Shown in pieces: positions 20,196 to 42,202 of a stretch of 64,000 nt of DNA. The stretch spans positions 248,001 to 312,000 of the forward strand of contig NZ_CP021112.1 in NCBI RefSeq assembly GCF_002119765.1, in the 5' to 3' direction. Every line of letters starts with the position of its first letter. The first letter of the stretch is position 1. The translations under genes were made by a program, and so were the position numbers. Below the pieces are notes generated by a model, which made no database searches, was not told the DNA's origin, and saw only the letters and a list, made by a program, of their open reading frames with translations. Source of the DNA: Pseudorhodoplanes sinuspersici (GTDB lineage: Bacteria; Pseudomonadota; Alphaproteobacteria; Rhizobiales; Xanthobacteraceae).

Positions 20196-20252
20196 AGCAT
20201 TTTTCGACCGTACTCCGCTGTAGAACATGACCTGAAGCCATCGAATGACAAC

Positions 20253-21414: not shown

Positions 21415-22722
21415 TTAGTCCGACAACGACAGAGTCAAATCCAGAGTTTCCGGACGTTTGAGTGTAGGAATCTTGGACCTCGTTGCTAACCCCGGCGGGA
21501 CTTTAATCCAGCGGTAACCTTGGACCCCAGAGCGATAGCCTTCATCGTAAAGTGCTTGCATGTAGGCCTTTTCAAATGGCTCAGCCCATCTAACGCTGAA
21601 GCTGGACGGAATGGCGGCCAAGTTGAAGTCGGTGCCATCGGCCAGCGCATTGACGTAAATGCGATAAAGGTCACCAATGCTTTGGCTTTTGATGAGTGTA
21701 AACACCGACCGCCGGGAAATTGAGAAGATACCTTCCTCGACGGCTTCCCATTCGGGAGTGATCTTCCCGTTGCGGATAATGAACAGACGCCTCGCCGGGG
21801 ATGCTTTTGTCGCAGAGCCGAGCCCACGGCCGGCAACTGAAGATGGCGGCACGAAGACCTGCTGAGTCACTCCACCATCAACATGCAACTCTTCATAAGT
21901 CTGGCCACCAGCCCGGACCTTGATGCGTACCGGAGGAAAGGCACCTGGGATCGACGCAGAGGCCAATAGAACCTTACGAAAAAGACTAAGCGCCTGTGGA
22001 TGACCGCTCATTGCGATGCGTCCCATATCCCAAAGGACGGGCCGCTCCGCATCCAGATTTGTCGTGCCAATCAGTAAGATCCGCCCTTTTTTGCGCTCGC
22101 GGGCGACATCGCGGAGGAAAGCCTCATCGACATAGTTTGCAATCAGACTTCCGAGCGGAGAACTGTCAACCAATCCACCGCCAAATAGCGGCGCTATAAT
22201 GCCAGGATCATAAATGTCACTGCGCGTGTATTTGGTAAAAATCTCCCTCAGCTGCACATCTTTCCCTTGGCCCAGATAGACGAAAGGAGCGGTGAGTGCA
22301 CCTGCGCTAACACCGGTGACAACATCGAAGTCGGGTCGCGTCCCGGCATCACTCCAGCCGACCAGGAGACCGGCTCCGAACGCACCGTTGTCAGCTCCAC
22401 CTGAGATCGCGACGATGTTGAATGCTCGTGATTGCTGTTCTGAGCGTCCCACCGCTGAAGTGAACGCGGCCATCTTGTGCCTTTCGGCCCTGAAGAGCGC
22501 GACGAAGGATTCGGCCGGCGCGTCACCCCAAACGCGGATATTTGGCATGCCAGCGAGTTCGGCCTCGTTTGAAAGCTGTTCCGGCACAATATTGCGGGGG
22601 AAGACGGTTGCGCATCCAGCGCCGAGTACAGCGAACACGAGCAGCACAATGGTCAATGGTATTCCGGACCGCGCACGTACGGCAGCCGCGCTTGTTCGTC
22701 GATCTCCGACACTCCGGCTCAA
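21415..22722 (-). CDS. Patatin-like phospholipase lipoprotein
   Basis: A 435-residue lipid acyl hydrolase. The N terminus has a positively charged stretch, a hydrophobic helix and a lipobox LGAGC near residue 36, so it is probably a lipoprotein. Patatin motifs: oxyanion SGGADNGAFGAG near 105, catalytic serine GVSAG near 140, and the DGG of the Ser-Asp dyad in VDGGVTQQVF near 285. It overlaps the second response regulator gene by 4 bp, occupying the place where a sensor kinase would normally be. Confidence 0.9.
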   Translation of the reverse strand: MSRSVGDRRTSAAAVRARSGIPLTIVLLVFAVLGAGCATVFPRNIVPEQLSNEAELAGMPNIRVWGDAPAESFVALFRAERHKMAAFTSAVGRSEQQSRAFNIVAISGGADNGAFGAGLLVGWSDAGTRPDFDVVTGVSAGALTAPFVYLGQGKDVQLREIFTKYTRSDIYDPGIIAPLFGGGLVDSSPLGSLIANYVDEAFLRDVARERKKGRILLIGTTNLDAERPVLWDMGRIAMSGHPQALSLFRKVLLASASIPGAFPPVRIKVRAGGQTYEELHVDGGVTQQVFVPPSSVAGRGLGSATKASPARRLFIIRNGKITPEWEAVEEGIFSISRRSVFTLIKSQSIGDLYRIYVNALADGTDFNLAAIPSSFSVRWAEPFEKAYMQALYDEGYRSGVQGYRWIKVPPGLATRSKIPTLKRPETLDLTLSLSD

Positions 22723-23441
22723 CGTTGCCCATCCGATTGAGTGACCTTTGCGACAAGTTGGTAACCTCCATTGCGAACCGTCTTGAACATCTGATTCGAT
22801 TCACCGTTCGCGAGCTTGCGTCGCAGGCGACTAATCAACACGTCGATCGAGCGATCTAACGCGTCTCCATCGCGCCCGTACACCAGATCGAACAGTTGAT
22901 CCCGCGAAAGGACGCGACCGGGGCGATCAAGAAAGGTCAATAGCAGATTGAATTCTGCGCCGGTCAGCTCGACTTCGCTGCCTTCCGAATTGATCACTGA
23001 CCGAGCAAAAGGATCCGCCCTGAACCCTTCGAAAAAATAGCAACTCGCGTCACTCTGTATGGAGCGGTTATCTTTGTCGCGGCGCAGTACTGCGCGGATG
23101 CGGGCGGCAAGCTCGCGCGGATTGAAAGGTTTCCCCAAGTAATCGGCAGCTCCGATCTCAAGACCTATGATCCGGTCCACGTCCTCCTTCAGAGCCGTGA
23201 GCAGTATGACAGGAATTTTTGACCGCATCGTCCGAAGGTCCCGACAAAGATCAAGTCCAGATCCGTCCGGCAACATGACATCAAGGATGATGAGGTCGAC
23301 TTGGTAGTTCGAAATGCATTCGCGCGCGTCCGCACATCTAGAAGCAAGCTGAACACGCAAGCCCTGCCCTTTCAGATAGCGCGCCAAAAGCTTTCGAATT
23401 TCAAGATCGTCATCCACAACAAGAACTTGTGGGGGGTGCAT
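22719..23441 (-). CDS. OmpR-family response regulator (paralogue)
   Basis: A 240-residue regulator closely resembling the one at 20253: QVLVVDDDLEIRKLLARYL, LIILDVMLPDGSGLD, LGKPFNPREL and the C-terminal winged helix LTGAEFNLLLTFLDRPGRVLSRDQ / LDRSIDVLISRLRRKL. All phosphorylation residues are intact. It is followed by a patatin lipoprotein rather than a kinase, so it is an orphan here. It is divergent from the LpxO-like gene. Confidence 0.92.
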   Translation of the reverse strand: MHPPQVLVVDDDLEIRKLLARYLKGQGLRVQLASRCADARECISNYQVDLIILDVMLPDGSGLDLCRDLRTMRSKIPVILLTALKEDVDRIIGLEIGAADYLGKPFNPRELAARIRAVLRRDKDNRSIQSDASCYFFEGFRADPFARSVINSEGSEVELTGAEFNLLLTFLDRPGRVLSRDQLFDLVYGRDGDALDRSIDVLISRLRRKLANGESNQMFKTVRNGGYQLVAKVTQSDGQR

Positions 23442-30057: not shown

Positions 30058-30097
30058 GAAATATCGCTTGAGAATTGTGCTGATAGCGATGCGCTAT
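30058..30097 (-). promoter_or_regulatory. LysR-type box A plus downstream element
   Basis: On the minus strand: ATAGC-N5-GCTATC, then 16 bp, then GATATTTC. The box (30083-30097) has perfect 5-bp arms and is a T-N11-A dyad. It overlaps the 3' end of the MFS gene and its centre is 108 bp upstream of the small secreted protein start. It aligns without gaps with the bufA1 promoter. Confidence 0.7.
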
Positions 30098-31329
30098 GTA
30101 ACGACGGCGGGCTGGGCGGGAAGCTTGAGCCGAACGGCAAGCAGCGCCGCAACCGCAAGCGACAGCGCGATTCCAGCAACACAAGCAAGCCAGCCGAACT
30201 GATCGAACAATTGCCCAAGCAGCGCCGTGCCTACTAGGCCGCCGAAGAAATAGCATGCGAGGTAGATGCCGCTCGCCGATCCACGATCCGTGGTCGCGGC
30301 GCGCCCAACAAAGCTGGTCGCGGCCGCCTGCGCAAAGAAGGTGCCGATCCCAACCAACGCGAGGCCCACAATCACGGCAACAAGATTAGGCAACAGCAAC
30401 AGCGGCAGTCCCAGCCCGGCCAGCGCGAGTGCACCCCAGAATGTCGGACGTGTTCCGAACCGCTGGGCGGCAGCTCCGGCGAAAGGCGTGGTAATAACTG
30501 ACGGCAGGAATACGAAATAGATCAATCCGAGCGCCATCATGCTGAGCGCATGCGGCTCCCGCACGAGCACAAAATTGATGTAGGTGAACGTGCCGATAAA
30601 TGCGAACAGGATGCAGAAGCCGATCCCGAATGCAGCGCGCAAAGGCGGGTTTTGCAGATGTTTACTCCACAGCGCGAGCGGCGACGCCAAAGCTTCGCCA
30701 CCCGGCTGCACCGGCATGGTCGAGCGGACCGAAAAATAGACCAAGATCGCCCCGGCAAGATTGAGCGCCGAAAAGAAATAGAAATTCGCCGCCAACCCGA
30801 GGTGATCCGCAACACCGGCCGAGATCAGCCGACCGACCAGATTACTCGCTACATTGCCGGTGATATAGGCGGCAAAGGCAGCGCCTGCGTCCATCGCACT
30901 GCATTCTTCCCCGAGATAAGCCAGTGTCAGTGTGAACGCCGCAGCCATGCACAGACCCTGTAAGACTCGCAGGATCGCGAAGCTGGCAAGATCGGGCGCC
31001 CAGGCCAGCAATGCGGTCGGAATCGCAAGCACGCAAAGACTTAGGACAGTGCCGGAGCGCCGGTTCAAGCGCCGGCTGAAGAACGCGACCGACACCCCTG
31101 CGACCGCCATTCCGAGTGTGCTCGCATTGACGGCGAGTCCCATGGCGGCCGGCGTCACACCGTAAGCTTTCGTCAGCGCGGGCAGAATGGCCTGTGTCGC
31201 AAACAGATCCACGACCGTCAGAAAGGCGATAACTCCGATGATGACATTACGACGGAGCGCGCGCAGCGCTCCGCCTTGTGCACCCGCAACACTGATCGCC
31301 GGCGATATGTGGGACGAGGCATGTGACAT
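30094..31329 (-). CDS. MFS transporter
   Basis: A 411-residue major facilitator with about 12 hydrophobic segments. The first segment IIGVIAFLTVVDLFATQAILPAL and the motif-A-like region between segments 2 and 3 (FFSRRLNRRSG near 105) are visible, with a repeat of the pattern in the second half. Likely an exporter of the YnfM/AraJ kind; substrate unknown. It follows the patatin gene by 25 bp and is the third gene of a bdhA-patatin-MFS operon driven by LysR box C1. Confidence 0.9.
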   Translation of the reverse strand: MSHASSHISPAISVAGAQGGALRALRRNVIIGVIAFLTVVDLFATQAILPALTKAYGVTPAAMGLAVNASTLGMAVAGVSVAFFSRRLNRRSGTVLSLCVLAIPTALLAWAPDLASFAILRVLQGLCMAAAFTLTLAYLGEECSAMDAGAAFAAYITGNVASNLVGRLISAGVADHLGLAANFYFFSALNLAGAILVYFSVRSTMPVQPGGEALASPLALWSKHLQNPPLRAAFGIGFCILFAFIGTFTYINFVLVREPHALSMMALGLIYFVFLPSVITTPFAGAAAQRFGTRPTFWGALALAGLGLPLLLLPNLVAVIVGLALVGIGTFFAQAAATSFVGRAATTDRGSASGIYLACYFFGGLVGTALLGQLFDQFGWLACVAGIALSLAVAALLAVRLKLPAQPAVVT

Positions 31330-31354
31330 GATGGAATACCGTGGAAACCCGCGT

Positions 31355-32506
31355 CTACTCTGCCGCTTCCACCATCCCGGACATCAGCTCATGCAGCAGC
31401 ACACCCTCGAGTGGATCGAACTCGTTCTCCCATGGCGCCTGCTCGAGCACGCGCATCGTATTCTGATAGCCAGCCTCCCAGCGCACGCGCAGGCTCGATG
31501 GACTGAAATCAACGTCCTTGGTGTGGTTCTCATTTTCAATCTGCGGCGCGAGCAGGCGCACGACGTGCATCGTCGTGGGGCATCCATAAGATGCCAGTTC
31601 CCGTACCTTCGGGAGGTTGCGGATCTCCTCCGGCAGGTACTTCGCCAGATCATTGATCACGTGGCGGAGATCGTGCATCTGCCGCTGCCGCGCGATATGA
31701 CTGGCCACGCGGCTGGAATACTGGATGTCCTTGTGCCGGTTCAGCACTTCCCAGATCGTGGATGGCTCGTTGCCGACCGGATTCCACAAATGGGCGGCGA
31801 AGATCAGTGAATCCTTGCGCGGATTGTCGTCGAAGATGGCTTCGGTCGGCGTGTTCGATAGGATGCCGCCATCCCAATAGAGCTCACCATCAATGCGAAC
31901 CGCCGGGAATGCGGGCGGCAACGCTCCTGATGCGAGGATGTGCTTCACATCGATTTCACCGTCACGGCTATCGAAGTATTTCATCGCGCTGGTGCGCACA
32001 TGTGCCGCGCCAACGGTGAGCCTCGGCTTGCATTGATTCAGTAGCTCGAAATCGACCAGCTCGAGCAGCGTCCTTTCCAATGGCGCCGTCGAATAGAAGC
32101 CAGCGCTGTCCACCCCGAGCGGAACATGCGTGCCGAGAAACGCTCCCGGATTGGGCTCGAAGAAATCCGGGATGCCGCGCAGCAATGTTCGCCAATAAGC
32201 CACCGTGTCGGACAGACCCGTCCAGGTTGGCACGCCGAATGGCGGGCGATAGGCCATGCGAGTCCAGAATTCCTTGAGGGCGTCCAGGCGGTCGTTGCGG
32301 GCGTTGCCCGCGATCAGACCCGCATTGATGGCGCCGATCGACGTGCCGATGATCCAGTCGGGGTCGATGCCATGCTCATGCAACGCGTGGTACACGCCGG
32401 CATGATAGGCGCCGAGCGCTCCGCCGCCCTGCAGGACCAGCACGATCTGCCGATCTTGTTTCTGTCCGTCTCGCGCCGAGATCTGTGTGACCGAACCAGG
32501 TTCCAT
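31355..32506 (-). CDS. Patatin-like phospholipase with DUF3734 domain
   Basis: About 383 residues. The N-terminal patatin domain shows LQGGGALGAYHAGV (oxyanion glycines near 27), catalytic serine in GTSIGAINAG near 57 and DGG in YWDGGILSNTP near 212. The C-terminal part (LRVRWEAGYQNTMRVLEQAPW) matches DUF3734. Such proteins are often tied to polyhydroxybutyrate metabolism or membrane lipids, and its neighbour is a 3-hydroxybutyrate dehydrogenase 27 bp upstream. ATG 32506 has GGAGG 5 bp upstream; ATG 32509 is adjacent. Confidence 0.92.
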   Translation of the reverse strand: MEPGSVTQISARDGQKQDRQIVLVLQGGGALGAYHAGVYHALHEHGIDPDWIIGTSIGAINAGLIAGNARNDRLDALKEFWTRMAYRPPFGVPTWTGLSDTVAYWRTLLRGIPDFFEPNPGAFLGTHVPLGVDSAGFYSTAPLERTLLELVDFELLNQCKPRLTVGAAHVRTSAMKYFDSRDGEIDVKHILASGALPPAFPAVRIDGELYWDGGILSNTPTEAIFDDNPRKDSLIFAAHLWNPVGNEPSTIWEVLNRHKDIQYSSRVASHIARQRQMHDLRHVINDLAKYLPEEIRNLPKVRELASYGCPTTMHVVRLLAPQIENENHTKDVDFSPSSLRVRWEAGYQNTMRVLEQAPWENEFDPLEGVLLHELMSGMVEAAE

Positions 32507-32536
32507 CATCTCCTCCCGAAAAATCCGCGTGGCGGC

Positions 32537-33358
32537 TCAATGTGCGGTCCAGCCGCCATCGACCGGCAAGGCAACACCTGTAATCGAGGACGCCGCGTCG
32601 CTTGCGAGAAAGACCGAGAGCGCGCCGAGTTCCTCGACGCTCGCAAAGCGCTTGCTGGGCTGCTGCGCCAGCAGCACGTCGCGGATCACCTGCTCGCGCG
32701 GAATATTGTGCGCCTTCGCCTGCCCTTCGATCTGCGCCTCGACGAGCGGCGTATAGACATAGCCGGGGCAGATCGCGTTGCAGGTGATGTTGGACTCCGC
32801 AGTTTCCAGCGCGGTCACCTTGGTAAGACCGACTATGCCGTGCTTGGCGGCGACATAGGCGGACTTGAACGGTGATGCTACCAGACCATGCGCGGACGCG
32901 ATGTTGATGATGCGGCCGAAATTATATCTACGCATCGAAGGCAGCGCCGCGCGCGTCGTATGAAATGCCGATGAAAGATTGATCGCAAGGATCATGTCCC
33001 ATTTGTCGGCGGGAAATACCTCGAGCGGAGCGACATACTGGATTCCAGCGTTGTTGACGAGAATGTCCAGCCGACCGAACGTATCGAGCGTCATCGCAAT
33101 CAGATCGGCCGCAGCAGCAGCCTTAGACAAATCTGCCGGCGAATAGCGCACCTCTACCCCGAATTCGGCGATCGTCCGCGCCTGCACTTCGGCAATATCC
33201 TCAGGCTTGCCAAAGCCGTTCAACACAATCGCAGAACCCGCCGCCGCGAGCGAACGTGCGATGCCGAGACCGATTCCACTGGTCGATCCCGTGACGAGCG
33301 AAACTTTACCTTCGAGAGACTGGGGTATCTGATGAAGGCTGAGCGGCTGAAAATTCAT
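32537..33358 (-). CDS. bdhA: 3-hydroxybutyrate dehydrogenase (SDR family)
   Basis: About 273 residues of the short-chain dehydrogenase family, NAD-linked interconversion of 3-hydroxybutyrate and acetoacetate. Seen: VTGSTSGIGLGIA near 22-34, NNAG near 104, catalytic Ser in INIASAHG near 153, the YVAAKHG Tyr-Lys pair near 168, and AICPGYVYTPLVEAQI near 200, which is characteristic of BdhA. First gene of a three-gene operon. Its promoter carries LysR box C1, 110 bp upstream of the start by box centre. Confidence 0.9.
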   Translation of the reverse strand: MNFQPLSLHQIPQSLEGKVSLVTGSTSGIGLGIARSLAAAGSAIVLNGFGKPEDIAEVQARTIAEFGVEVRYSPADLSKAAAAADLIAMTLDTFGRLDILVNNAGIQYVAPLEVFPADKWDMILAINLSSAFHTTRAALPSMRRYNFGRIINIASAHGLVASPFKSAYVAAKHGIVGLTKVTALETAESNITCNAICPGYVYTPLVEAQIEGQAKAHNIPREQVIRDVLLAQQPSKRFASVEELGALSVFLASDAASSITGVALPVDGGWTAH

Positions 33359-33435
33359 TGACCTGATCCTTCCGTTGCAGACTGCGCGCCGCGCGTCTGG
33401 TTGCAACGAAACTGACACGGCAGGCGAACGGCCTG

Positions 33436-33475
33436 GAAATGCCGATTGGCTAGGGTGACGATAGCTGCGCGCTAC
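33436..33475 (-). promoter_or_regulatory. LysR-type box C1 plus element (bdhA operon)
   Basis: On the minus strand: GTAGC-N5-GCTATC, 16 bp, GGCATTTC. The box is at 33461-33475 (nine of ten arm bases match), the element at 33436-33443. It faces the bdhA-patatin-MFS operon. Confidence 0.65.
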
Positions 33476-33498
33476 GCTGCGGGCCCGACCATGCATGA

Positions 33499-33538
33499 AT
33501 AGACGCAAGCTATCGCGCCCATCTGGAATTGATATTTC
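33499..33538 (+). promoter_or_regulatory. LysR-type box C2 plus element (doxX)
   Basis: On the plus strand: ATAGA-N5-GCTATC, 16 bp, GATATTTC. The box is at 33499-33513, the element at 33531-33538. It faces doxX and is back-to-back with box C1, giving one divergent control region. Confidence 0.65.
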
Positions 33539-33596
33539 TGAATCAGCTCCATTTCGCATTTGATCCGCGCATCGAACATTGTGGCAGGAGATCCCG

Positions 33597-34091
33597 ATGC
33601 ACGTATTCAAATGGCTCGACAAAAGCCGCAGCCTCGTCGACCGAATCCCCACGAGCCTGATCTTGCTCACGGCGCGTCTTGCCGTCGCCAACGTCTTCTG
33701 GCGCTCAGGCCAGACCAAAGTGAATGGCCTTTCAATCCGCGAGGAGACGTTCTTTCTGTTCCGCGAGGAATACAAGGTGCCGCTGTTGCCGCCAGATGTT
33801 GCGGCCTATCTCGCAACGATTAGCGAACATATCCTTCCGATCCTTTTGGTCATCGGCCTTGCGGCGCGCCTGTCTGCCGCCGGACTGCTCGGCATGACTC
33901 TGGTAATCCAGTTCTTTGTCGTGCCCGGCGGTTGGCCCGAACATCTTCTGTGGTTCGCGTTGCTCGGGCTGATCATTGCACGCGGACCCGGAGTGATATC
34001 GCTGGATCATCTGCTCTGGAATGCCTCTGCGCCTGCGTTGTCGACGAATAGCACCGCGCTATCGACACTAGAGCGGTCTGGCATTTCCTAA
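33597..34091 (+). CDS. DoxX family membrane protein
   Basis: A 164-residue membrane protein with four hydrophobic segments (about 20-38, 70-90, 92-112, 120-138). LARLAVANVFWRSGQTKV near 25-45 and the EHILPILLVIGLAARLSAAGLL stretch are typical of DoxX. Relatives commonly accompany DUF692/DUF2282 genes and redox or thiol-stress functions. AGGAG precedes ATG 33597. The cupin gene follows after 75 bp. Its promoter has LysR box C2. Confidence 0.88.
   Translation: MHVFKWLDKSRSLVDRIPTSLILLTARLAVANVFWRSGQTKVNGLSIREETFFLFREEYKVPLLPPDVAAYLATISEHILPILLVIGLAARLSAAGLLGMTLVIQFFVVPGGWPEHLLWFALLGLIIARGPGVISLDHLLWNASAPALSTNSTALSTLERSGIS
34048..34087 (+). promoter_or_regulatory. LysR-type box G plus element (cupin)
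   Basis: On the plus strand: ATAGC-N5-GCTATC, exactly 16 bp, GGCATTTC. The box (34048-34062) has perfect arms and lies inside the last codons of doxX; its centre is 112 bp upstream of the cupin start. The site provides an internal promoter for the cupin gene. Confidence 0.65.
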
Positions 34092-34166
34092 TCAAGCAAG
34101 GCCACTGCACCATCGCATTACTGCACGGCTCGAACGAGCCGCGGCGCAACAGAGGAGACCAAAATC

Positions 34167-34646
34167 ATGCTCACGTTCAACTGCGGCCGGCTTCGTTCGG
34201 TTGCCGCCCTCACAATCATGGCCTCAACCGGGTTCGCCGTTGGCGCACACGCGGGCGAATGCCCGACCGGCAAATTCAAACCAAATGCGCGCGAGGCGGT
34301 CACGCTCGCAGCATCGGGTGTCAGCGACACGACACTTGGGTCGATCGATCTCGGCAAGGAAAAAGCCAAGATCAAGGGCCGCGAGCTCCGCTTCCGGAAG
34401 ATGGTGATCCAGCCCGGCGGTGTTGTGCCGTGGCACAGCCACGATGACCGTCCGGCGCTGATCTATGTCGCGGAAGGCGAGATTATCGAATACGCCAGCA
34501 ATTGCGCGGCGCCTATCCATCACAAGGCCGGTGAAATCCGGACCGAGAGGCTCGGCACGTCGCATTGGTGGAAGAATCTCAGCGATGCCCCAGTCGTGCT
34601 GTTCATTGCCGACGTTCGCGCGGATCCCAACGACAAGCATATGTGA
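34167..34646 (+). CDS. Secreted cupin-domain protein
   Basis: 159 residues with a signal peptide (1-27, ending VGAHAG) and a single cupin barrel: GGVVPWHSHDDRPALIYVAEGEI near 88-110 supplies the first His/Glu motif and TSHWWKNLSDAPVVLFIADV near 133-152 the second. A metal site is likely; reaction unknown. GAGGAG precedes the start. It ends 35 bp before an intrinsic terminator. LysR box G sits upstream. Confidence 0.88.
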   Translation: MLTFNCGRLRSVAALTIMASTGFAVGAHAGECPTGKFKPNAREAVTLAASGVSDTTLGSIDLGKEKAKIKGRELRFRKMVIQPGGVVPWHSHDDRPALIYVAEGEIIEYASNCAAPIHHKAGEIRTERLGTSHWWKNLSDAPVVLFIADVRADPNDKHM

Positions 34647-34680
34647 CGGTTGCCCTGTCCCCTCACCGGCCGTCACACCA

Positions 34681-34718
34681 TGACGCCCCGCTCGTCCCAA
34701 GCGGGGCGTCACTTTTTG
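34681..34718 (+). terminator. Rho-independent terminator after cupin gene
   Basis: GACGCCCCGC (34682-34691) pairs with GCGGGGCGTC (34701-34710) across a short loop, extended by an outer T/A pair, and is followed by CTTTTTG. It ends the doxX-cupin transcript and insulates the peroxiredoxin promoter beyond it. Confidence 0.9.
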
Positions 34719-34741
34719 CGGCGCCAGTGCGCCGCACAACT

Positions 34742-34774
34742 ATAGAGGGGAGCTATCGTCGATCGGGCATTTTC
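34742..34774 (+). promoter_or_regulatory. LysR-type box D (first peroxiredoxin-like gene)
   Basis: ATAGA-N5-GCTATC at 34742-34757, directly after the terminator. The following element is GCATTTTC only 9 bp downstream instead of 16, a variant geometry shared approximately with box E. The box centre is 98 bp upstream of ATG 34847. Confidence 0.55.
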
Positions 34775-34846
34775 AGTGGAAATCGGCGGGCCCGATCGCA
34801 TATGAAATATGGGACGCCCCTATCTCGCAGCACGAGCAGTTCCACG

Positions 34847-35545
34847 ATGGCTACTCAAACCGTGGCAACCGGCCTTAAACAAGCTTTTGACCAGGCCCGC
34901 GATCTTGATGGATCAATGAGCGAGCGGCTGGACCTGCTTGCGGACGCCATGCGGCGGCTGACGCCGGACAGAGTGGCCGTCATCGACAGGCTGGTGAACC
35001 GTTTAAAGGAGCACGATGCCGGCACCAGTGCGCCCCGTGTCGGTGACGCGATGCCGCCCTTCATCCTGCCGGACGAAAACGGCCAGCTCGTCAGCCTTCA
35101 GAGCCTTCTGGATCATGGGCCGGCCGTCGTAACCTTCCATCGCGGCCATTGGTGTCCGTGGTGCCGCATCAGCATCAACACGCTGGCGCGCGCTCAGGCG
35201 CGGCTTGAAGCGGCCGGCGCACGAATGGTCGCCATCGTGCCGGACCGTGAACAATTCGCGGCCGAGATGAAGCACGATGCCAATGCGAGCTTCCCGATCC
35301 TCTCTGACATAGACAATGGCTACGCGATGTCACTAAACCTTGCGATCTGGGTAGGTCCGGAGATGGAAGCCTACATCATCGACCGCGGCCACTCGCTGCC
35401 CGACTACCATGGCAATGACAGCTGGATGCTGCCGATCCCCGCGACATTCGTGATCGGTCAGGATGGCCGTATCAAAGCACGCTTTGTCGATCCGGATTAC
35501 CGCAAGCGCGCCGCCATCGAAGATTTGATCGCTGCGCTAGGATAG
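34847..35545 (+). CDS. Peroxiredoxin-like AhpC/TSA family protein (CPWC)
   Basis: A 232-residue thioredoxin-fold protein. After a helical N-terminal region (1-65), the Prx-like domain shows PPFILPDENGQLVSL near 73, the active site FHRGHWCPWCRISINTLA near 102 (both cysteines of CxxC present), PILSDIDNGYAMSLNLAIWVG near 150 and PATFVIGQDGRIKARFVDPDYRKR near 205. It probably reduces peroxides or thiols. ATG 34847 is preferred over 34802, because it matches the box-to-start distance of the other LysR-box genes and the length of its paralogue at 40373. It converges on the LysR gene. Confidence 0.87.
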   Translation: MATQTVATGLKQAFDQARDLDGSMSERLDLLADAMRRLTPDRVAVIDRLVNRLKEHDAGTSAPRVGDAMPPFILPDENGQLVSLQSLLDHGPAVVTFHRGHWCPWCRISINTLARAQARLEAAGARMVAIVPDREQFAAEMKHDANASFPILSDIDNGYAMSLNLAIWVGPEMEAYIIDRGHSLPDYHGNDSWMLPIPATFVIGQDGRIKARFVDPDYRKRAAIEDLIAALG

Positions 35546-35559
35546 CGATTTTCGTGCAG

Positions 35560-36447
35560 TTAGTCTGTCTTGTGCGGCCATTTCGCCGCGCGCAGCATTT
35601 TCATGAAAGTTGCGGCGATCGGCGAACGCTGACGGCCAGCGACGCCGTAAAGGCAGACAGTGCGGCCAAGCTCGAGGCCCTCCACAGTCGTTCGCACCAC
35701 AGTCTGCGGCGAACTGACCGTGCGCGGCAGAAAGCCGATGCCGATATTTGCTTCCAATAGCGCGAGCAAGTCCTGGTCCGAGGAGACCTCGTGGCGGTGA
35801 TCAGCATTAAGGCCTTTCGTCTTCAGCAGCGCGGCAAGATCGGTGCTTCGCTCGCAATGACTACGCAGCAGGAAACGCTCGGGCTTCAGATCGTCGAGCT
35901 GTATCGTTTCCTGATTGGCCAGCCGATGCGCGCGGCTGAACACCATGTCGAAGGATTCATCGAACAGCTTCCAGGTGTCGAGCCGATCCCACGCCTCGCC
36001 GATCGATGACGCGATCGCAAGCTCCGCCTCTCCGGACTTCATGTATTCGACCAGTTGCGGACCGGTACCGCGCAGGATCTTCAGTTCGATTTCATTGAAA
36101 TTTTTACGAAGCTCATTCACCTGCGTCAGGATCAGACTCAGTTCTATGCTACTCGAAACTGCGAGCTTGAGGGCACCAACCTCACCGTCGTTGATCTGGG
36201 CGGCCAGTGCCCGGGCAGCTTGCGCGCTCTCGTAGCATTGCTTTAGCAGCGGATACATCCGCTCGCCCAGTGGGGTCAGCATCGCGTGCGGGCGCTCGCG
36301 CCGGAACAGGTCGCCGCCAAGCTCGCCCTCCAGCAGCTTGATGGCGCGCGTCAGCGACGGCTGCGCAACGTTGCACTCCTCAGCGGCACGCGTGAAGTTC
36401 AGCGTCCGCGCGACGGCCAGAAAGTACCTGACCTGGTGCATTTCCAT
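35560..36447 (-). CDS. LysR family transcriptional regulator
   Basis: A 295-residue LTTR: N-terminal winged helix (FLAVARTLNFTRAAEECNVAQPSLTRAIKLLEGELGGDLFRRE, residues 8-50) and a two-lobed effector domain (LKLAVSSSIELSLILTQVNEL; the ELAIASSIGEAWDRLDTW hinge; SSDQDLLALLEANIGIGFLP). Its C terminus resembles LTTRs linked to oxidative or thiol stress, although I cannot assign a ligand. It is central to a block with eight T-N11-A dyads and is the only LysR gene in the window, so it is the natural candidate to bind them. No box was found at its own promoter. Confidence 0.92.
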   Translation of the reverse strand: MEMHQVRYFLAVARTLNFTRAAEECNVAQPSLTRAIKLLEGELGGDLFRRERPHAMLTPLGERMYPLLKQCYESAQAARALAAQINDGEVGALKLAVSSSIELSLILTQVNELRKNFNEIELKILRGTGPQLVEYMKSGEAELAIASSIGEAWDRLDTWKLFDESFDMVFSRAHRLANQETIQLDDLKPERFLLRSHCERSTDLAALLKTKGLNADHRHEVSSDQDLLALLEANIGIGFLPRTVSSPQTVVRTTVEGLELGRTVCLYGVAGRQRSPIAATFMKMLRAAKWPHKTD

Positions 36448-36472
36448 GGCGACGCCCCCCTCGGGCGATCGA

Positions 36473-37777
36473 TCAACTTTCTTTAGAGATCAGTTCCATT
36501 CGCGAAGTTCTAGCCACATCGTCAAGAGGCCGCACGTGCAGTCCCGTGATCAGGCGGCTGCCTCGCTGAAACGTGATGTAGCTCCACATCCAGTTCAGCA
36601 CGACGGTAAAGCGGTTGCGAAACCCGATCAGAAAGTAGATGTGGGCGGCGCTCCACAGCAGCCACGCAGGCAATCCGGACAGGTGCAAACCGCCCATCTG
36701 CGCCACCGCTCGCTTTCGGCCGATGGTCGCGAGCGACCCGAAGTCACGGTAACGGAAAGGCTGGATCGAGCGGCCATTACAGCGTGCAATCAGGGCTTTG
36801 GCGACATATTGGCCCTGTTGCTTGGCCACCGGCGCAACACCCGCTAGCGGGCGCCCTTCGACATCGGTCGACACTGCTGTGTCGCCAATGACGAAAATGT
36901 CGGGATGACCCGGGGCCGTCAAATCCGGTCGCACTCGCACGCGGCCGGCACGGTCCGTATCAGCGCCGAGCCAGCGACCGGCGGGTGACGCCATCACGCC
37001 GGCAGCCCAAATGATCGTGCGCGTCGGAATCACCTCCGTGCCTATTCGGACGTCCTCACAGCTACAATCGTCGACAGCCGCACCAAGCCGCACCTCGACG
37101 CCAAGTTGCTCGAGTGCGCGGCGCGCGGCTTCCGACAGCGGTTCGGTGAATGGAGTCAGGATTCGCGGCGCAGCTTCGATCAGAATGATGCGGGCGCAAC
37201 GCGGATCGATCGAACGAAAATCAGCCGCAAGCGCACGCTTGGCAAGTTCCGCGATCGCACCGGCCATTTCAACCCCTGTTGGCCCGCCACCGACAACGAC
37301 GAATGTCAACAGACGGCGACGCTCCTCGGCATTCGGCTCGATCTCAGCGCTTTCGAAGGCAAGCAAGATGCGGCGGCGCAGATAGGTGGCGTCATCGACC
37401 GACTTCAGACCCGGCGCAAAGGTCGCCCAGTCATCTCGTCCGAAATAGGCGTGGCGTGCGCCGGTTGCGAGCACGAGATAGTCGTAGGAGACGCGCAAAC
37501 CAGCGGCAACGACTTCGCAGTTGACTGTATCCACGCCGGTAACCTCTGCCAGCATGACCTTGGTATTGCGCTGCTCACGCAGAATATTACGGATGGGTGA
37601 TGCGATGTCCGCCGGCGACAGACCTGCCGTTGCGACCTGATAGAGCAGCGGCTGGAATAGATGGTGATTGTTACGGTCGATCAGTACAACCTCGAAAGGC
37701 TGACCGGCAAGCCCCTTGGCCACGGACAATCCGCCAAAACCGCCGCCTACAATCACGACACGAGGCCTAGGTCGCAT
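36473..37777 (-). CDS. ndh: Type II NADH:quinone oxidoreductase (NDH-2)
   Basis: A 434-residue single-polypeptide flavoprotein that transfers electrons from NADH to quinone without proton pumping. Seen: the FAD-binding VVIVGGGFGGLSVAKGL near 7-23, DRNNHHLFQPLLYQVATAGL near 37, LVLATGARHAYFG near 105, the NADH-binding VVVGGGPTGVEMAGAIAEL near 165, TIIWAAGV and IFVIGDTA near 300. A hydrophobic C-terminal stretch suits membrane attachment. AAAGG lies 7 bp before ATG 37777. It follows bufC in the same direction after 131 bp and probably belongs to the bufferin transcript. Confidence 0.92.
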   Translation of the reverse strand: MRPRPRVVIVGGGFGGLSVAKGLAGQPFEVVLIDRNNHHLFQPLLYQVATAGLSPADIASPIRNILREQRNTKVMLAEVTGVDTVNCEVVAAGLRVSYDYLVLATGARHAYFGRDDWATFAPGLKSVDDATYLRRRILLAFESAEIEPNAEERRRLLTFVVVGGGPTGVEMAGAIAELAKRALAADFRSIDPRCARIILIEAAPRILTPFTEPLSEAARRALEQLGVEVRLGAAVDDCSCEDVRIGTEVIPTRTIIWAAGVMASPAGRWLGADTDRAGRVRVRPDLTAPGHPDIFVIGDTAVSTDVEGRPLAGVAPVAKQQGQYVAKALIARCNGRSIQPFRYRDFGSLATIGRKRAVAQMGGLHLSGLPAWLLWSAAHIYFLIGFRNRFTVVLNWMWSYITFQRGSRLITGLHVRPLDDVARTSRMELISKES

Positions 37778-37908
37778 CTGAATGCCTTTCATGGCGTTGA
37801 CCTGGCGCAATTGCTACAGCCCGCGCGCGTAGCAACAAGCCCGAATTACCTATCTGGTCGATGCACAGCGGCTATGGTCGACGGACCGGACCCACGGTCT
37901 CTAAGGGC

Positions 37909-38703
37909 TCAGGCGTGCGGGCCCGCAGCGGCCGCCATTCCGGTGACAATCCCTGCGCAAATCATGATGCGGAAGGCGGTCGCAAGATCGAAAGCGTCCG
38001 AACTCGCCGTGGCTGCGGCCGCAGCACCTACGGTTTCGCCCTTGGCAATCGCCGCAAAAAACTCATAAGTTCCCGGCGGCAAATCCCAGACCTCGACATC
38101 GAAGTGCGGGCGAACGACCAGCGCCCCTTCGGGTTTCCAGGCAATAGGCTGCTCGCCGTCGTCGCGAAGATAGGCTTGCCAGATGGAGACAGCCGGAAAA
38201 CGCGAGCACAACAGAATCGCCGATGGATGCATCGTCAGTCGCAGGTTCAGCACATCATCCGCGGATAGATGCGTGAACAGATCGGCAGCAAGCGGCACGG
38301 CGTCTGCGGCGTGATAGGCGCAGGTTCGCGCATTCTCTATCGCCGCAACGTCGGCAACACACTGGGCAGCAGCTCCTTCTCCCACGCTGCGAAGGAATTG
38401 CGGGAAATCCTTTCCGTATTGGGAGAGAATCGGCGAACGCGGCGGCTCGGTAACGACATAAAGACGCGCAATTCCGTCGAAGGTATCAGGCCAGAGCAGC
38501 CGGCGTGTAACGGGATAGCGTGACGCCAAAGCCCTTATCAGGCTTGCGATGACATTGTTGCGATAGACGCCGAACCGGCTGAGACTGGCAGCGCCACAGC
38601 TCAGCTTGATCGCGGCAGGCACCGGCGCATCGTTGTTCAACAACGCCTCCGCAAAATCGCGCTCAAGCCGGAATGGGGCGCTCTCACGCGCAAATACGGT
38701 CAT
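37909..38703 (-). CDS. bufC: DUF2063 protein, bufferin maturation partner BufC-like
   Basis: A 264-residue protein with the DUF2063 N-terminal domain (FAEALLNNDAPVPAAI near 18; LSRFGVYRNNVIASLIRALASRYPVTRRLL near 46-75) and YGKDFPQFL near 105. In bufferin systems this type of protein pairs with the DUF692 oxidase and recruits the precursor peptide. It begins 4 bp after the bufB stop. The C-terminal portion (VRPHFDVEVWDLPPGTYEFFAAIAKG) is the second domain common to such partners. Confidence 0.85.
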   Translation of the reverse strand: MTVFARESAPFRLERDFAEALLNNDAPVPAAIKLSCGAASLSRFGVYRNNVIASLIRALASRYPVTRRLLWPDTFDGIARLYVVTEPPRSPILSQYGKDFPQFLRSVGEGAAAQCVADVAAIENARTCAYHAADAVPLAADLFTHLSADDVLNLRLTMHPSAILLCSRFPAVSIWQAYLRDDGEQPIAWKPEGALVVRPHFDVEVWDLPPGTYEFFAAIAKGETVGAAAAATASSDAFDLATAFRIMICAGIVTGMAAAAGPHA

Positions 38704-38707
38704 CCAG

Positions 38708-39583
38708 TTAGGCCGCCGCCATGGTTGGAGACACAGCGAGACGAAGCCTGCGCGCCCTGCCCGCCTCGGCGGCCAAAGCCGCAAAATCAGGCACCTCGTT
38801 GTCCCACTCGATCAGTGTCGGCGCGGTACAATGCCTTGCAAGGACCCGACGATAAAGCGTCCACACGGCCTCGCTCACGGCACGGCCATGATCATCAATC
38901 AATAACCTTGCACCCTCGCTGTCCTGATCTTCGGCAAAACCTGCCAGATGAAGCTCACCAACATGCTCGACCGGAAATGCGTCGATATAGGCCGATGCCT
39001 CGAAGCCGAGATTGACCGACGACACATAGACATTGTTCACATCAAGCAACAGGCCACAGCCAGTCCGCGCAACCACTGCGCGCAAAAAATCGATCTCGGG
39101 CATCGTGCTTGTCGCAAATGTGACGTAGGTCGCCGGATTTTCCAGAAGCATACGTGTTGTGAGTACATCCTGTACTTGATCGATATGTGCGCAGACATGT
39201 CCCAATGTGCTCTCGTTGTACGGAAGCGGAAGTAGATCGTTGAGGAACACGCCCTCGTGGCTCGACCAGGCGAGATGCTCGGAGAACAGAAAGGGCTCGT
39301 AGATATCTATCAGCCGCTGGAGTCGTCGCAGATGGTCGCGATCCAGTGGAGCGGCTCCGCCGATCGACAGGCCGACGCCGTGGAGCGATACCGAATAGTC
39401 GGACCGGATACGATGAAGCAGATGATGCATCGGGCCGCCGGCGCCCATGTAGTTTTCCGCGTGAACCTCGAAGAAGTCGACACGCCGATCGCCTTCAAAG
39501 ATTTCTCGCGCATGCTCATGCTTGAAGCCGACGCCGATCGTGTGGGGGTCACACGGCGATTTGACGTTTGTTTTGGTCCACAT
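38708..39583 (-). CDS. bufB: DUF692 multinuclear non-heme iron oxidase (MNIO), BufB-like
   Basis: A 291-residue TIM-barrel enzyme of the DUF692/MbnB family. Conserved iron-site motifs are visible: FFEVHAENYM near 40, SLHGVGLSIG near 70, FSEHLAW near 105, LLLDVNNVYVSSVNLG near 185, ELHLAGF near 217 and IEWDNEVPDF near 262. In bufferin systems the enzyme converts precursor cysteines to sulfur heterocycles that bind copper. The start at 39583 is preferred since GAGG lies 8 bp upstream; an in-frame ATG at 39649 overlaps the bufA1 end. It lies between bufA1 and bufC. Confidence 0.9.
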   Translation of the reverse strand: MWTKTNVKSPCDPHTIGVGFKHEHAREIFEGDRRVDFFEVHAENYMGAGGPMHHLLHRIRSDYSVSLHGVGLSIGGAAPLDRDHLRRLQRLIDIYEPFLFSEHLAWSSHEGVFLNDLLPLPYNESTLGHVCAHIDQVQDVLTTRMLLENPATYVTFATSTMPEIDFLRAVVARTGCGLLLDVNNVYVSSVNLGFEASAYIDAFPVEHVGELHLAGFAEDQDSEGARLLIDDHGRAVSEAVWTLYRRVLARHCTAPTLIEWDNEVPDFAALAAEAGRARRLRLAVSPTMAAA

Positions 39584-39654
39584 GAACTGGGCCTCTTTTT
39601 GTTTGGCTTCGGCGGAAGCTGGCGCGGCTGCCAGCTTCCGCCGTGACATGAGGA

Positions 39655-39945
39655 TCACGCCGGGCGCTTGATTTCGATGAGCGATCCCGGACCGAACGGC
39701 GTCTGCGTGGTGACGCAGGTACCCTTGTTGACGAGCTTCCAGGCATTGCCTTGATAGTCGATCTTGGAGGTACCGGCACAGGTCGTGCCAGGGCCGGCGG
39801 CGCAATCGTTCTGGCCTTTCAGCGACACGCCAAAGCACTTCTCCTTTTCGGCAGCCTGAGCCGGCGCGGTGGCAATAGTCGCCAGCGCAGACGTCAGCGC
39901 CGCGGCGATCGCAAGCGACGTGATGGAATTGATTTTCTCGGACAT
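39655..39945 (-). CDS. bufA1: DUF2282 family bufferin precursor (BufA1-like)
   Basis: A 96-residue secreted precursor. The signal peptide covers roughly residues 1-31 (ending APAQA). The mature part begins AEKEKCFG, matching the KCxG motif of DUF2282 bufferins, and has four cysteines (37, 48, 56 and 77 in this numbering). In characterised bufferins some cysteines become thiooxazoles and the product chelates copper in the periplasm. ATG 39945 is chosen because GGAG is 7 bp upstream; ATG 39951 is too near. It is first in bufA1-bufB-bufC-ndh, with LysR box B 103 bp upstream. Confidence 0.9.
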
Positions 39946-40015
39946 CGACATTCTCCGTGTTCAAACGCTCGCTATTGAGCGTTTCCGGCACCGTGCCGCC
40001 TTTGTCGATGCTGTT

Positions 40016-40055
40016 GAAATATCGTCAGCGAATTATTCCGATAGCGGGTTGCTAT
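40016..40055 (-). promoter_or_regulatory. LysR-type box B plus element (bufferin operon)
   Basis: On the minus strand: ATAGC-N5-GCTATC, 16 bp, GATATTTC. The box is 40041-40055 with perfect arms, the element 40016-40023. Alignment with box A is gap-free and continues as CGATATTTCAAC in both. A second dyad, AACGCTC-N6-GAGCGTT (39964-39983), lies in the leader. Confidence 0.72.
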
Positions 40056-40058
40056 CCG

Positions 40059-40259
40059 TCAGCGAATCCACGGGTCGCTGTTGCCGGCGTGTATCGTCGT
40101 CTCTCGCTTGGCGATCATCACGCGCTGATCTGACTGATCATGCAGCGCATCGGTGCGCGCACAGATCGCACCCATCGTCACAGCAATGCCAGCCACGAGC
40201 GCGATAACTACGATCCGGATATGGGTCTGAACACCAGCCGTTTGCAGTGAATAATGCAC
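40059..40259 (-). CDS. Small single-pass membrane or secreted protein
   Basis: 66 residues from a GTG start with GGGAG 7 bp upstream. Residues 14-34 (IRIVVIALVAGIAVTMGAIC) form one hydrophobic segment; the remainder is polar (RTDALHDQSDQRVMIAKRET). No family is recognised. Support for it being real comes from a LysR-type box and GGCATTTC element at the same distances (95 and 63-70 bp) seen before the bufferin and doxX genes. Confidence 0.6.
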   Translation of the reverse strand: MHYSLQTAGVQTHIRIVVIALVAGIAVTMGAICARTDALHDQSDQRVMIAKRETTIHAGNSDPWIR

Positions 40260-40321
40260 TGCGATGCTCCCGATGCAGGATAAGCAGTCGTATAATCTTT
40301 AGACGTCGGCAGCGCACGCGT

Positions 40322-40361
40322 GAAATGCCGCGTCGATAAAAGCCCGATAGCTGCGCAATAT
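40322..40361 (-). promoter_or_regulatory. LysR-type box F plus element (small protein)
   Basis: On the minus strand: ATATT-N5-GCTATC, 16 bp, GGCATTTC. The box is 40347-40361 (weaker left arm), the element 40322-40329. It lies 12 bp after the stop of the second peroxiredoxin-like gene. Confidence 0.55.
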
Positions 40362-40372
40362 CGCGAGCGCTC

Positions 40373-41083
40373 TTACAGGCCGGCGCGAAGCTGCTCCAGC
40401 ACACCGACAATGGTCTCCGGCTCCATGCGCTCACGGAACTCGATATTGACCTGGCGCGCCTTGACGAGCCCATCCCGCCCGACAATGAACTTCGCGGCCA
40501 TCGGCAGGAAATAGCCGTCGCGACCCTGATATTGATCGAGCGCGACGCCTGCCTCCTGATAGAGCCGCTGAACCTCCGCACCGACCCAAAAGATCAAATC
40601 GAGCGAGAGTGCATAGCCAAGATCAATATCGCTGAGGACTGGAAAGGGCAGATCGTTCTCCCGAACATAGTCCGCCGTCGCTTGTGCGGTTTCGGGCATG
40701 ATGGCCACGACGCTCGCTCCCAGCCCTTTGATGCGATCGTGACTGGCGGCGAGCGAGCGTAGTTCCATCTTGCAATAGGGGCACCAATGCCCGCGGTTCA
40801 AGCTGATCACCGCAGGTCCGGATCGCAACAGCGATTCTAGCGAGACCAGCCGACCTTTCTGATCCGGCATCATGAAGGATGGCATGCGTTCGCCGAGCTT
40901 CGGCCCGATGTCGCCGCGATCGAGCGCCTCCAGACGCGCGACTAGCGCATCATAAGCCGCCGCAAAATCGGGTCGCCTCGTGCGGCTTTCCCGTTCATAG
41001 GCGGATAGCTGAATGCCGAGCGGCGCCGCTTCGCGCTGCGGCCGATCTTCGCTCGGCTGATCGCTTTTTTTTTGTTTCTGCAA
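40373..41083 (-). CDS. Peroxiredoxin-like AhpC/TSA family protein (CPYC)
   Basis: About 236 residues, paralogous to the protein at 34847. Seen: MPSFMMPDQKGRLVSLESLL, the active site LNRGHWCPYCKMELRSLA with both CxxC cysteines, VLSDIDLGYALSLDLIFWVG and AAKFIVGRDGLVKARQVNIEFRER. Thiol-based peroxide or disulfide chemistry is likely. The start is proposed at TTG 41083, which has GAGG 5 bp upstream. An in-frame TTG at 41155 falls inside LysR box E and so would precede the promoter. Only the small membrane protein gene lies downstream, with its own box. Confidence 0.82.
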   Translation of the reverse strand: MQKQKKSDQPSEDRPQREAAPLGIQLSAYERESRTRRPDFAAAYDALVARLEALDRGDIGPKLGERMPSFMMPDQKGRLVSLESLLRSGPAVISLNRGHWCPYCKMELRSLAASHDRIKGLGASVVAIMPETAQATADYVRENDLPFPVLSDIDLGYALSLDLIFWVGAEVQRLYQEAGVALDQYQGRDGYFLPMAAKFIVGRDGLVKARQVNIEFRERMEPETIVGVLEQLRAGL

Positions 41084-41130
41084 TATTGCCTCACATCGGA
41101 AGAGCCGCAGACAGTCACTGGAAGTGAAAG

Positions 41131-41163
41131 CAAATACCACGAGGTGATATAGCAAGGCGCTAT
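41131..41163 (-). promoter_or_regulatory. LysR-type box E (second peroxiredoxin-like gene)
   Basis: Box 41149-41163 has perfect ATAGC/GCTAT arms. On the minus strand it is followed after 9-10 bp by GGTATTTG, the short-spacing variant seen also at box D before the paralogous gene. Confidence 0.55.
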
Positions 41164-42202
41164 GGAATCTATCGTTCCGCCGTGAGAGGGCGTACCGACC
41201 GCCCGCTTAGACCATAAGCAGACCTCGCCTGACGGGAGGTGCCTTGCATAAACGACATTATAGAATGGCTGCTAGTCATTATATCTAGTTTAGCTCGCAA
41301 AGCGCTACCGCACTGTTTGCCCGTGGCAGTTCGGAAGCTTCCATCTTGCTCGACCCATCGTAAGCAAACTTGATCCGCAAGGCGGATATCGACGAGTGGC
41401 GCCTCATTGAGTCCATCAGAAATCCGGCCGGAAAAGACGGCCCGCTCGCAGGTTGTCAGACGGAACGCATCGCTTGCTGGTCGGAGATGTCGCCGCGCGC
41501 TTGCATCGCACAAAATCGAAGCGCGGCGAGCGGCGGCCCATAGCATCGTATTTTCTGCGAGGCCGCGATTTCGAAGCCAAGCTTGAGCAGTTCGCCGTGA
41601 ATGCGTGGCGCTCCCGAAAAGCGGATTCTCGATGGATCAGCGCCCGCAACTCCGCCTCGATCTGAGGCCGCCCTCCCTGTGAGAGTGACTTCCAACGCCA
41701 ATAGAGACGAAAGCCGGCTCCGTGCCAGCGGGCGAGGGTCTCCGGCTGGACAACGTGCGCCGCGCCGAGCACGGCTTGAGAGATTGCAAATGTGGTGGCC
41801 GGCCGATCACCGCAGATCAATCGCGCTACCCTTCGCTGCGAACCGCTTCGCAACCATGAACTGATGCAACGCATGTCCCATTCCGCCGATCAAGCCGCGG
41901 ACCGCCAGAATAAACGAAGCTGTTGCCGGGTGGAACATTCGGCGATTTCGCCGCACGGCAACCGAAATGATTTGAGATTGCTTGGATCTCGTACCCGCAG
42001 CCTACCGGCAACGACAGTTGGCGTCGCAAACTCGCGACGATGATCACACAACCCACCCGCGTGCCTAACTAATCCCGGCGGCGCTGGTGCTTCCACCAAG
42101 ACTCGCCGATCAAAGAAGGCCCTTCCCAGTGCCCCATTGACACCGTGAGGACGGCACGTCGCACGCTTGGCCAAGCCTGTAGCAACCCGTCCGTCTTTCT
42201 AT
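41164..42202. other. Gene-poor stretch containing a transposase remnant
   Basis: About 1 kb without an intact gene. The only recognisable content is the broken transposase at 41416-41874. The rest, including 41875-42200, gives no convincing frame or family match. Confidence 0.55.
41416..41874 (-). pseudogene. Degenerate IS3/rve-type transposase fragment
   Basis: One minus-strand frame reads VQPETLARWHGAGFRLYWRW then GGRPQIEAELRALI, the linker before an integrase core. After a frame change, FSGAPRIHGELLKLGFEI continues the same protein in another frame (within 41456-41701). Homologous transposases read through these two segments contiguously, so a frameshift has occurred, and the DDE catalytic core that should follow is missing or unrecognisable. 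No terminal inverted repeats were identified. Confidence 0.7.

Follow-up and report, generated by a model that had tools for sequence, protein, structure and literature searches.

A probable LysR regulon with OxyR-type sites over a thiol-, oxidant- and copper-defence gene set in Pseudorhodoplanes sinuspersici

Bufferins, a family named only recently, are copper-binding ribosomally synthesized and post-translationally modified peptides (RiPPs). The regulators described beside them in the available sections of a landscape paper are sigma factors with NrsF (PMC12452194), and the word LysR was not found in its main text. The accounts that follow likewise rest on the available sections of each source. 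In Caulobacter, the SigF-NrsF system (CC3252-CC3257) controls DUF2282-DUF692-DUF2063 genes (PMC3511200, PMC12452194), and SigF controls a DUF2282-DoxX operon under metals (PMC3511200). In H. influenzae, hypochlorous acid (HOCl) induces a doxX/DUF2063/COG3220 operon as part of an RpoE2 response (PMC7907618). A flavoprotein disulfide reductase or a peroxiredoxin-like enzyme stands under a reactive-chlorine regulator in the RclR-RclABC system of E. coli and the RclR-RclX system of P. aeruginosa (PMC7464077, PMC7950407); RclA connects HOCl and copper defence (PMC7464077), and cupin genes accompany chlorite dismutase (PMC9751292). LsrB, a redox-linked LysR-type protein described from Rhizobiales, has a trxB operon and the cysteines C144 and C273 (PMC11975290). 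Here we analyze a 64,000-nt stretch of the 5.97-Mb genome of Pseudorhodoplanes sinuspersici (contig NZ_CP021112.1, positions 248,001 to 312,000; the whole stretch is hereafter the window), in which genes for defence against thiol stress, oxidants and copper, spread over eleven kilobases and including a bufferin operon, very probably form a single LysR regulon, judging from operator-like sites repeated before its genes.

An earlier note on this DNA had listed eight exact copies of the dyad ATAGC-N5-GCTAT, six of them continuing as GCTATC-N16-GRYATTTC. A re-scan returned all eight boxes at the same coordinates and the downstream element in register at the same six; exactness holds for four boxes, the others having one (three boxes) or two (one box) mismatches (Table 1). 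The dyad alone is a weak signal: at up to two mismatches the window has 26 matches, compared with 15.5 expected and 25 in the largest of 100 shuffles, and a further one-mismatch copy, outside the earlier list, lies inside an open reading frame (ORF) at 5258. Genome-wide, the 16-base dyad at up to one mismatch is not enriched (34/33 matches vs 45/48 for a reversed control), and the bare dyad was rejected as a genome-wide predictor because this form is no commoner than the control. Exact dyads are found five times in the genome, four inside the cluster and one within an ORF (C1:3579671). The composite pattern ATAG-N7-CTAT-N17-GRYATTTC has four perfect and two one-mismatch matches in 5.97 Mb, and all six lie in the cluster; the two matches with two mismatches both lie outside it. 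The earlier note would have given up its regulon had the motif been as common at unrelated loci, an objection that the composite and the exact dyad survive and the one-mismatch dyad does not.

The earlier assignment to the T-N11-A boxes of LysR proteins fits, and can be narrowed. The spacing is that of the OxyR consensus, ATAG-N7-CTAT, and further downstream the conserved bases make up another dyad, degraded and one 22-bp step on. The consensus of the sites before cupin genes is GCTAT-N7-AGAGC-N5-GGCATTTC, with N7 beginning CG. We read GRYATTTC as probably containing the last quarter of a tetramer site. No -10 promoter element at a fixed spacing was recognized by eye in the site contexts of relatives. 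In the window, the dyad centre lies 89-112 bp upstream of the start codon at seven of the eight sites; at the remaining one the start is uncertain.

Conservation was followed in the best 80 of 299 candidate loci from a search with the LysR protein, mostly from Bradyrhizobium. One is a metagenome-assembled genome at 83% identity, the others share 54-61%, and most have the same neighbour genes in other arrangements. These loci (1.57 Mb) hold 95 exact dyads, compared with 22 for the next best of 60 half-site permutations and a mean of 2.8 that includes the true pattern; other spacings (0-13) gave 0 or 1 exact matches. Among 222 contexts picked for a dyad located 60-160 bp upstream of a gene, without selecting on GRYATTTC, this element stood at offset 17 in 111 and at the next commonest offset in 12. 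A census of 101 sequences (the 80 loci, the window and 20 motif loci from the blind search below, which hold a site by construction) gave 271 composite sites, not all independent because at least six motif-fetched stretches are probably LysR-fetched contigs (L165/L045, L158/L048, L159/L082, L160/L093, L161/L101 and L163/L086). Cargo genes follow 232 of them at 20-450 bp: cupin (86), bdhA (62), DUF302 (27), patatin (23), peroxiredoxin 1 (21), bufA (4), doxX (4), and bufC, ndh, lysR, the small membrane protein and the secreted ORF once each. The remaining 39 have no assigned cargo, and many of these have the peroxiredoxin-type form but lie further upstream. Median distances from dyad centre to start codon are 95-143 bp, the exceptions being the single bufC (259) and lysR (329) cases. 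Moreover, the lysR-divergent promoter of 25 of the 80 loci contains a dyad that deviates at no more than one position, usually as the variant ATAGG-N5-GCTAT. Its distance to lysR is 74-79 bp in 24 of these loci, and its distal element is directed at bdhA or patatin in the examples inspected; this placement is the classical LysR arrangement.

Among relatives (L031, the closest, L033, L039 and L104), genes for a secreted-looking DUF302 protein and for an FAD disulfide reductase from the RclA/MerA-like superfamily also belong to the cluster. Two of three such FAD enzymes are of the PRK06370 family and score 348-359 bits against the RclA model; the third, more distant, scores 179, the cut-off being 740. 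With the L031 reductase as the one query, the best match in the Pseudorhodoplanes genome reaches 32% identity, so a close copy is absent. The recurrent core is patatin/bdhA, cupin/MFS (major facilitator superfamily) and peroxiredoxin, plus DUF302/FAD disulfide reductase in relatives. Because the LysR, the site and many cargo genes recur in relatives from several families, the motif is real and not a product of chance.

A blind search for the composite (at most one mismatch) in 397 genomes of the order, made without reference to LysR, gave 33 matching places spread over 21 genomes; 28 of these places lie in genomes other than the window's own, and the reversed control gave 1. The stretches of all 20 other genomes were fetched: 18 contain a lysR homologue (30-60% identity), and 17 of these 18 also hold at least one further cargo homologue, the exception being G344 with nothing but a 30% lysR. 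A LysR ortholog (E <= 1e-60, with scoring, for LysR and OxyR alike, confined to the five or six top-ranking preliminary candidates of each genome) was found in 26 of the 397 genomes. Motif and LysR occur together in 16 genomes where 1.4 were expected, with 5 having the motif only, 10 LysR only and 366 neither (Fisher p = 7e-18, a value that overstates the case because nine of the 16 come from the window's own family, the sampled genomes being related, and because the counted ortholog of G037 sits on a different contig from the motif). A plasmid search returned 9 records, all below 41% identity. At L148 (G247) the same cargo is accompanied by three lysR homologues of 31-35% identity, each of which retains the conserved cysteine; they are possibly paralogous sensors.

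The gene at 35560-36447 is, as claimed earlier, the only LysR gene of the window by eye and by profile search; it matches PF00126 (68.9 bits) and PF03466 (111.2 bits) above both cut-offs. The former description, a gene in the middle of the cluster, understates its position: its start lies 25 bp after ndh on the same strand, and for this reason it is probably the last gene of a bufA-bufB-bufC-ndh-lysR unit. T-N11-A boxes stand before target genes and, in 25 of the 80 loci at one mismatch, in the lysR-divergent promoter; the window's lysR lies inside an operon instead. Each of the 81 LysR proteins compared, the window's own and those of the 80 loci, has Cys25, Cys71 and Cys198. In a further set reaching down to 30% identity (window plus 20 homologues, some from the same genomes as the 80 loci), Cys25 and Cys198 are kept in 21 of 21, Cys71 is lost in remote members, and Glu directly follows Cys198 in 20 of 21. 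In a single-sequence alignment Cys198 falls on the C199D position of P. aeruginosa OxyR (4x6g), and in a profile alignment on the DGHC cysteine of C. glutamicum OxyR (6g1b), so that two of three alignments place it at the peroxidatic cysteine (C199, E. coli numbering). No conserved cysteine stands nine residues later, at the resolving position, in the 81- or the 21-protein set. The effector domain of the structure model is well predicted (predicted local distance difference test 82-91 per ten-residue block, residues 91-290) and the helix-turn-helix poorly. On this evidence the protein is likely to be a thiol sensor, with a ligand-pocket cysteine as a possible alternative.

The likeness to OxyR thus lies in the dyad spacing, in the second dyad one step on, in the LysR fold and in Cys198; the differences lie in the missing resolving cysteine, the inner C/G of the cluster half-sites, the target genes and the presence of a separate OxyR-type protein in the genome. 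Identity with LsrB was rejected on gene neighbours and cysteine positions: lysR here lies between ndh and peroxiredoxin 1 where lsrB has trxB, and no cysteine is conserved near 144 or 273, because only Cys 25, 71 and 198 are conserved, a comparison made by residue position.

The bufferin genes of the window are of the Buf1 type, with genes for a DUF2282 precursor, an MNIO maturase and a DUF2063 partner in a row. The claim that the regulon is built around them was not borne out. In 14 bufB places (13 linked to LysR, plus L199), a site with at most one mismatch stands before bufA in four: the window and L031 (0 mismatches) and L148 and L149 (1 mismatch, two other families). The best match before bufA has 3 mismatches in L039, 5 in L196, 8 in L156, 7 in L199, and 5-6 in six stretches, five of them named Bradyrhizobium and the sixth probably a duplicate of one of these. 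In 20,000 random stretches, a null that contains real sites, the best match had exactly 5 mismatches in 850, at most 5 in 12% and at most 6 in 32%, so the best matches before the Bradyrhizobium bufferin operons are at a level common in random stretches. Because a good site stands before bufA in few of the places checked, bufferins are an accessory member, under a LysR site in three lineages. Upstream of bufA in the Bradyrhizobium operons of L045, L050, L053, L064 and L080, which lie near this lysR, a shared degenerate stretch ending AGGCATTGG lies at nearly the same distance; it may represent a third mode of control or a weak LysR site.

A second bufferin operon in the same genome, L199 (C1:3804000-3818000; C1:3810641), encodes DUF2282, MNIO, DUF2063 and DoxX proteins, adjoined by divergent genes for an extracytoplasmic function (ECF) sigma factor and NrsF. 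It has the SigF-NrsF arrangement and resembles the Caulobacter system, has no composite site at three mismatches, and is a natural internal control for the LysR-linked operon. The window operon differs from both in its LysR site and in carrying ndh and lysR after bufC, where L199 has doxX. A search for SigF/NrsF control of the window operon found none: to the extent covered by the stretches, no homologue of SigF or NrsF is encoded within 4 kb of bufB at any of the 13 LysR-linked places. RclR is a regulator of the AraC type, and the FAD enzymes of the relatives fall below the RclA cut-off. RclX is AhpD-like, and the available sections of the Rcl reports name no bufferin. The H. influenzae regulator is an ECF sigma factor and not a LysR protein, and bdhA, cupin and patatin are not named in the sections available (PMC7907618).

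Computed here were the sites, their specificity and conservation, their co-inheritance with the LysR protein and its invariant cysteine, and from these we infer a mechanism that we consider reasonably probable as a whole: a LysR regulon in which a tetramer binds an OxyR-type site, activates rather than represses, and senses redox state through Cys198. The strong dyad ATAGC-N5-GCTAT would be the recognition half of a two-dyad site, and the degraded dyad 22 bp gene-ward, ending GRYATTTC about at the -35 region, would be the activation half. The targets bdhA-patatin-MFS, doxX, the cupin, both peroxiredoxins, the small membrane protein and bufA-bufB-bufC-ndh-lysR would be activated, and lysR, lying inside the activated bufferin unit, would therefore amplify itself. 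A site before ndh is represented in the window by a 3-mismatch remnant at 37861 only; L031 has an exact dyad there. The inducer is most likely a thiol-reactive oxidant or electrophile, such as reactive chlorine, a hypothiocyanite-like species or copper-linked thiol stress, which Cys198, aligned with the peroxidatic cysteine of OxyR, would read without a resolving partner nine residues on. The members are thiol peroxidase-like proteins, DoxX, NDH-2, a cupin, an MFS transporter and a predicted copper-binding peptide system, with DUF302/FAD disulfide reductases in relatives; because of this membership and the published parallels, a thiol-reactive oxidant, perhaps reactive chlorine together with copper, is favoured. 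bdhA and patatin could conceivably supply NDH-2 with NADH from polyhydroxybutyrate or lipid.

Several observations weigh against this mechanism, beyond the relatedness of the double-positive genomes and the misplaced ortholog of G037. Ten genomes have a LysR ortholog and no motif; nine of them (all but G002) were fetched, and three lack a composite site even at three mismatches. The other six have one at one to three mismatches, and in five of these genomes it precedes a homologue of the cupin, bdhA, peroxiredoxin or MFS genes. The motif stretch of G055 has no cargo match and that of G299 only a 32% bdhA-like match 7.6 kb off, neither with a LysR at the site. The LysR protein scores 90.2 bits against the OxyR model NF008361 (cut-off 329), which places it outside that model's class, a cut-off passed by none of the 397 genomes. 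The profile alignment to P. aeruginosa OxyR (4x6g) puts Cys198 two residues past C199D, and, with no resolving cysteine, Cys198 may instead have a structural role or belong to a ligand pocket. In the Foldseek ranking CcmR leads, followed by OxyR, which is not singled out, a result that indicates membership in the LysR class and no more. The catabolic-looking members bdhA, patatin and MFS fit a metabolic signal about as well. It is conceivable, if rather unlikely, that LysR binds these sites in answer to a small metabolite (ketone-body, fatty-acid or aromatic), with peroxiredoxins and bufferins as collateral protection: patatin and MFS, often with bdhA, are among the most constant members, Foldseek returns itaconate and shikimate LysR domains besides CcmR (2-oxoglutarate), and the resolving cysteine is absent. 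This signal would leave unexplained why Cys198 is kept down to 30% identity and why redox and thiol members (peroxiredoxins, DoxX, NDH-2 and, in relatives, FAD disulfide reductase) recur.

Whether all eight dyads belong together depends on the two before the peroxiredoxin genes (34742 and 41149), neither of which has GRYATTTC in register, a further point against the proposed regulon. That these two arose by chance and only the six composite sites are real is nonetheless improbable, given that L031 has an exact dyad before peroxiredoxin 2 and the same ATAGA variant before peroxiredoxin 1, and that 21 composite sites of other loci precede peroxiredoxin 1 homologues. Binding by the genome's OxyR-type protein (C1:1862128; 264 bits), with the local LysR incidental, has the OxyR-like spacing of the dyad in its favour; an OxyR-type protein, present in 280 of the 397 genomes, also occurs in each of the 21 that have the motif (p = 0.0005, weak but real). 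The motif is absent from 259 of the 280 OxyR-bearing genomes and present in 16 of the 26 LysR-bearing ones, so the association with OxyR is real but far weaker than that with LysR; the composite at up to one mismatch occurs nowhere else in the genome, and the dyad recurs in the lysR-divergent promoter. We disfavour OxyR as the binder, and consider it very improbable, though every motif genome has such a protein. Hardly more credible, and slightly less so if anything, is a promoter or sigma-factor element or a mobile repeat in place of an operator: the distal GRYATTTC at its fixed offset could belong to a promoter, but among the conserved bases is a symmetric dyad whose spacing is strict, no SigF/NrsF homologue accompanies the LysR-linked bufB genes within the distance given above, and the bases between conserved positions vary, unlike those of a mobile repeat.

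The single LysR regulon of the earlier note thus stands in its specific composite, in the conservation of that composite before the same genes, in its co-inheritance with LysR and in the lysR-divergent dyads; its centring on bufferins does not. LysR regulons as a kind are known; this one has an OxyR-type site, a new sensor candidate and a new cargo, and, as the earlier note supposed, no published account was found among the top-ranked results of a literature search lying mostly outside subscription journals. More tentatively, and with slightly less than even confidence, we suggest that a distinct OxyR-like LysR class lacking the resolving cysteine acts as a thiol, reactive-chlorine and copper master switch in Hyphomicrobiales and recruits bufferins independently of SigF-NrsF, so that one genome would place two bufferin operons under two sensors. 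A LysR input would suggest a use of the bufferin peptide against another, second signal; which chemistry to test is indicated by the genes under the same control, those for thiol peroxidase-like proteins, DoxX, NDH-2 and FAD disulfide reductase. The regulon would also give a shared context to the poorly understood DUF302, secreted cupin, patatin-DUF3734 and peroxiredoxin-like genes, and it predicts a new thiol-sensor class in Bradyrhizobium. Genetics are available in Bradyrhizobium.

Table 1. Genes and candidate sites of the cluster in window coordinates, with reductase and DUF302 positions in relatives.
Feature	Position	Strand	Remarks
Composite site before small secreted ORF	30058..30097	-	dyad 30083-30097, 0 mismatches; GATATTTC
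Composite site before bdhA	33436..33475	-	dyad 33461-33475, 1 mismatch; GGCATTTC
Composite site before doxX	33499..33538	+	dyad 33499-33513, 1 mismatch; GATATTTC
Composite site before cupin	34048..34087	+	dyad 34048-34062, 0 mismatches; GGCATTTC; overlaps doxX 3' end
Dyad before peroxiredoxin 1	34742..34756	+	1 mismatch, ATAGA variant common to L031; no distal GRYATTTC in register
Composite site before bufA	40016..40055	-	dyad 40041-40055, 0 mismatches; GATATTTC
Composite site before small membrane protein	40322..40361	-	dyad 40347-40361, 2 mismatches; GGCATTTC
Dyad before peroxiredoxin 2	41149..41163	-	0 mismatches, exact in L031 too; no distal GRYATTTC in register
Small secreted-looking ORF, 92 aa	29704..29982	-	weakest member
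MFS transporter, third gene of bdhA-patatin-MFS	30094..31329	-	PF07690
Patatin-like phospholipase with DUF3734	31355..32509	-	PF01734, PF12536
bdhA, 3-hydroxybutyrate dehydrogenase	32537..33358	-	TIGR01963 372 bits, cut-off 307
DoxX membrane protein	33597..34091	+	PF07681
Cupin, secreted-looking (signal by eye)	34167..34646	+	PF07883
Peroxiredoxin-like protein 1 (CPWC)	34847..35545	+	PF00578/PF08534
LysR-type regulator	35560..36447	-	PF00126 + PF03466
ndh, type II NADH dehydrogenase	36473..37810	-	PF07992, PF22366 NDH2_C; 25 bp before lysR
bufC, DUF2063 partner protein	37909..38703	-	PF09836; ORF open from 38784, start chosen after bufB
bufB, MNIO bufferin maturase	38708..39580	-	NF050167 382 bits, cut-off 310; PF05114; start approximate
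bufA, DUF2282 (Buf1-type) bufferin precursor, four Cys	39655..39951	-	PF10048 82.6 bits
Small membrane protein, 66 aa, GTG start (by eye)	40059..40259	-	look-alike behind site in L104 (by eye)
Peroxiredoxin-like protein 2 (CPYC)	40373..41155	-	PF00578; ORF as open, real start probably near 41080
FAD disulfide reductase / DUF302 in relatives	L031:15889-17265, L033:12812-14173, L039:7878-9251, L104:13452-13934

The 92-aa secreted-looking ORF gave no Pfam or NCBIfam match at E 0.001 and no tblastn match in the 80 LysR loci. Just past peroxiredoxin 2, at 41416-41874, overlapping frames resemble, by eye, a broken transposase or integrase and perhaps mark the edge of the cluster. Also in the window, at 20115-23441, two nearby genes for OmpR-type response regulators lie, by eye, beside a resistance-nodulation-division (RND) efflux system and a patatin-like gene.

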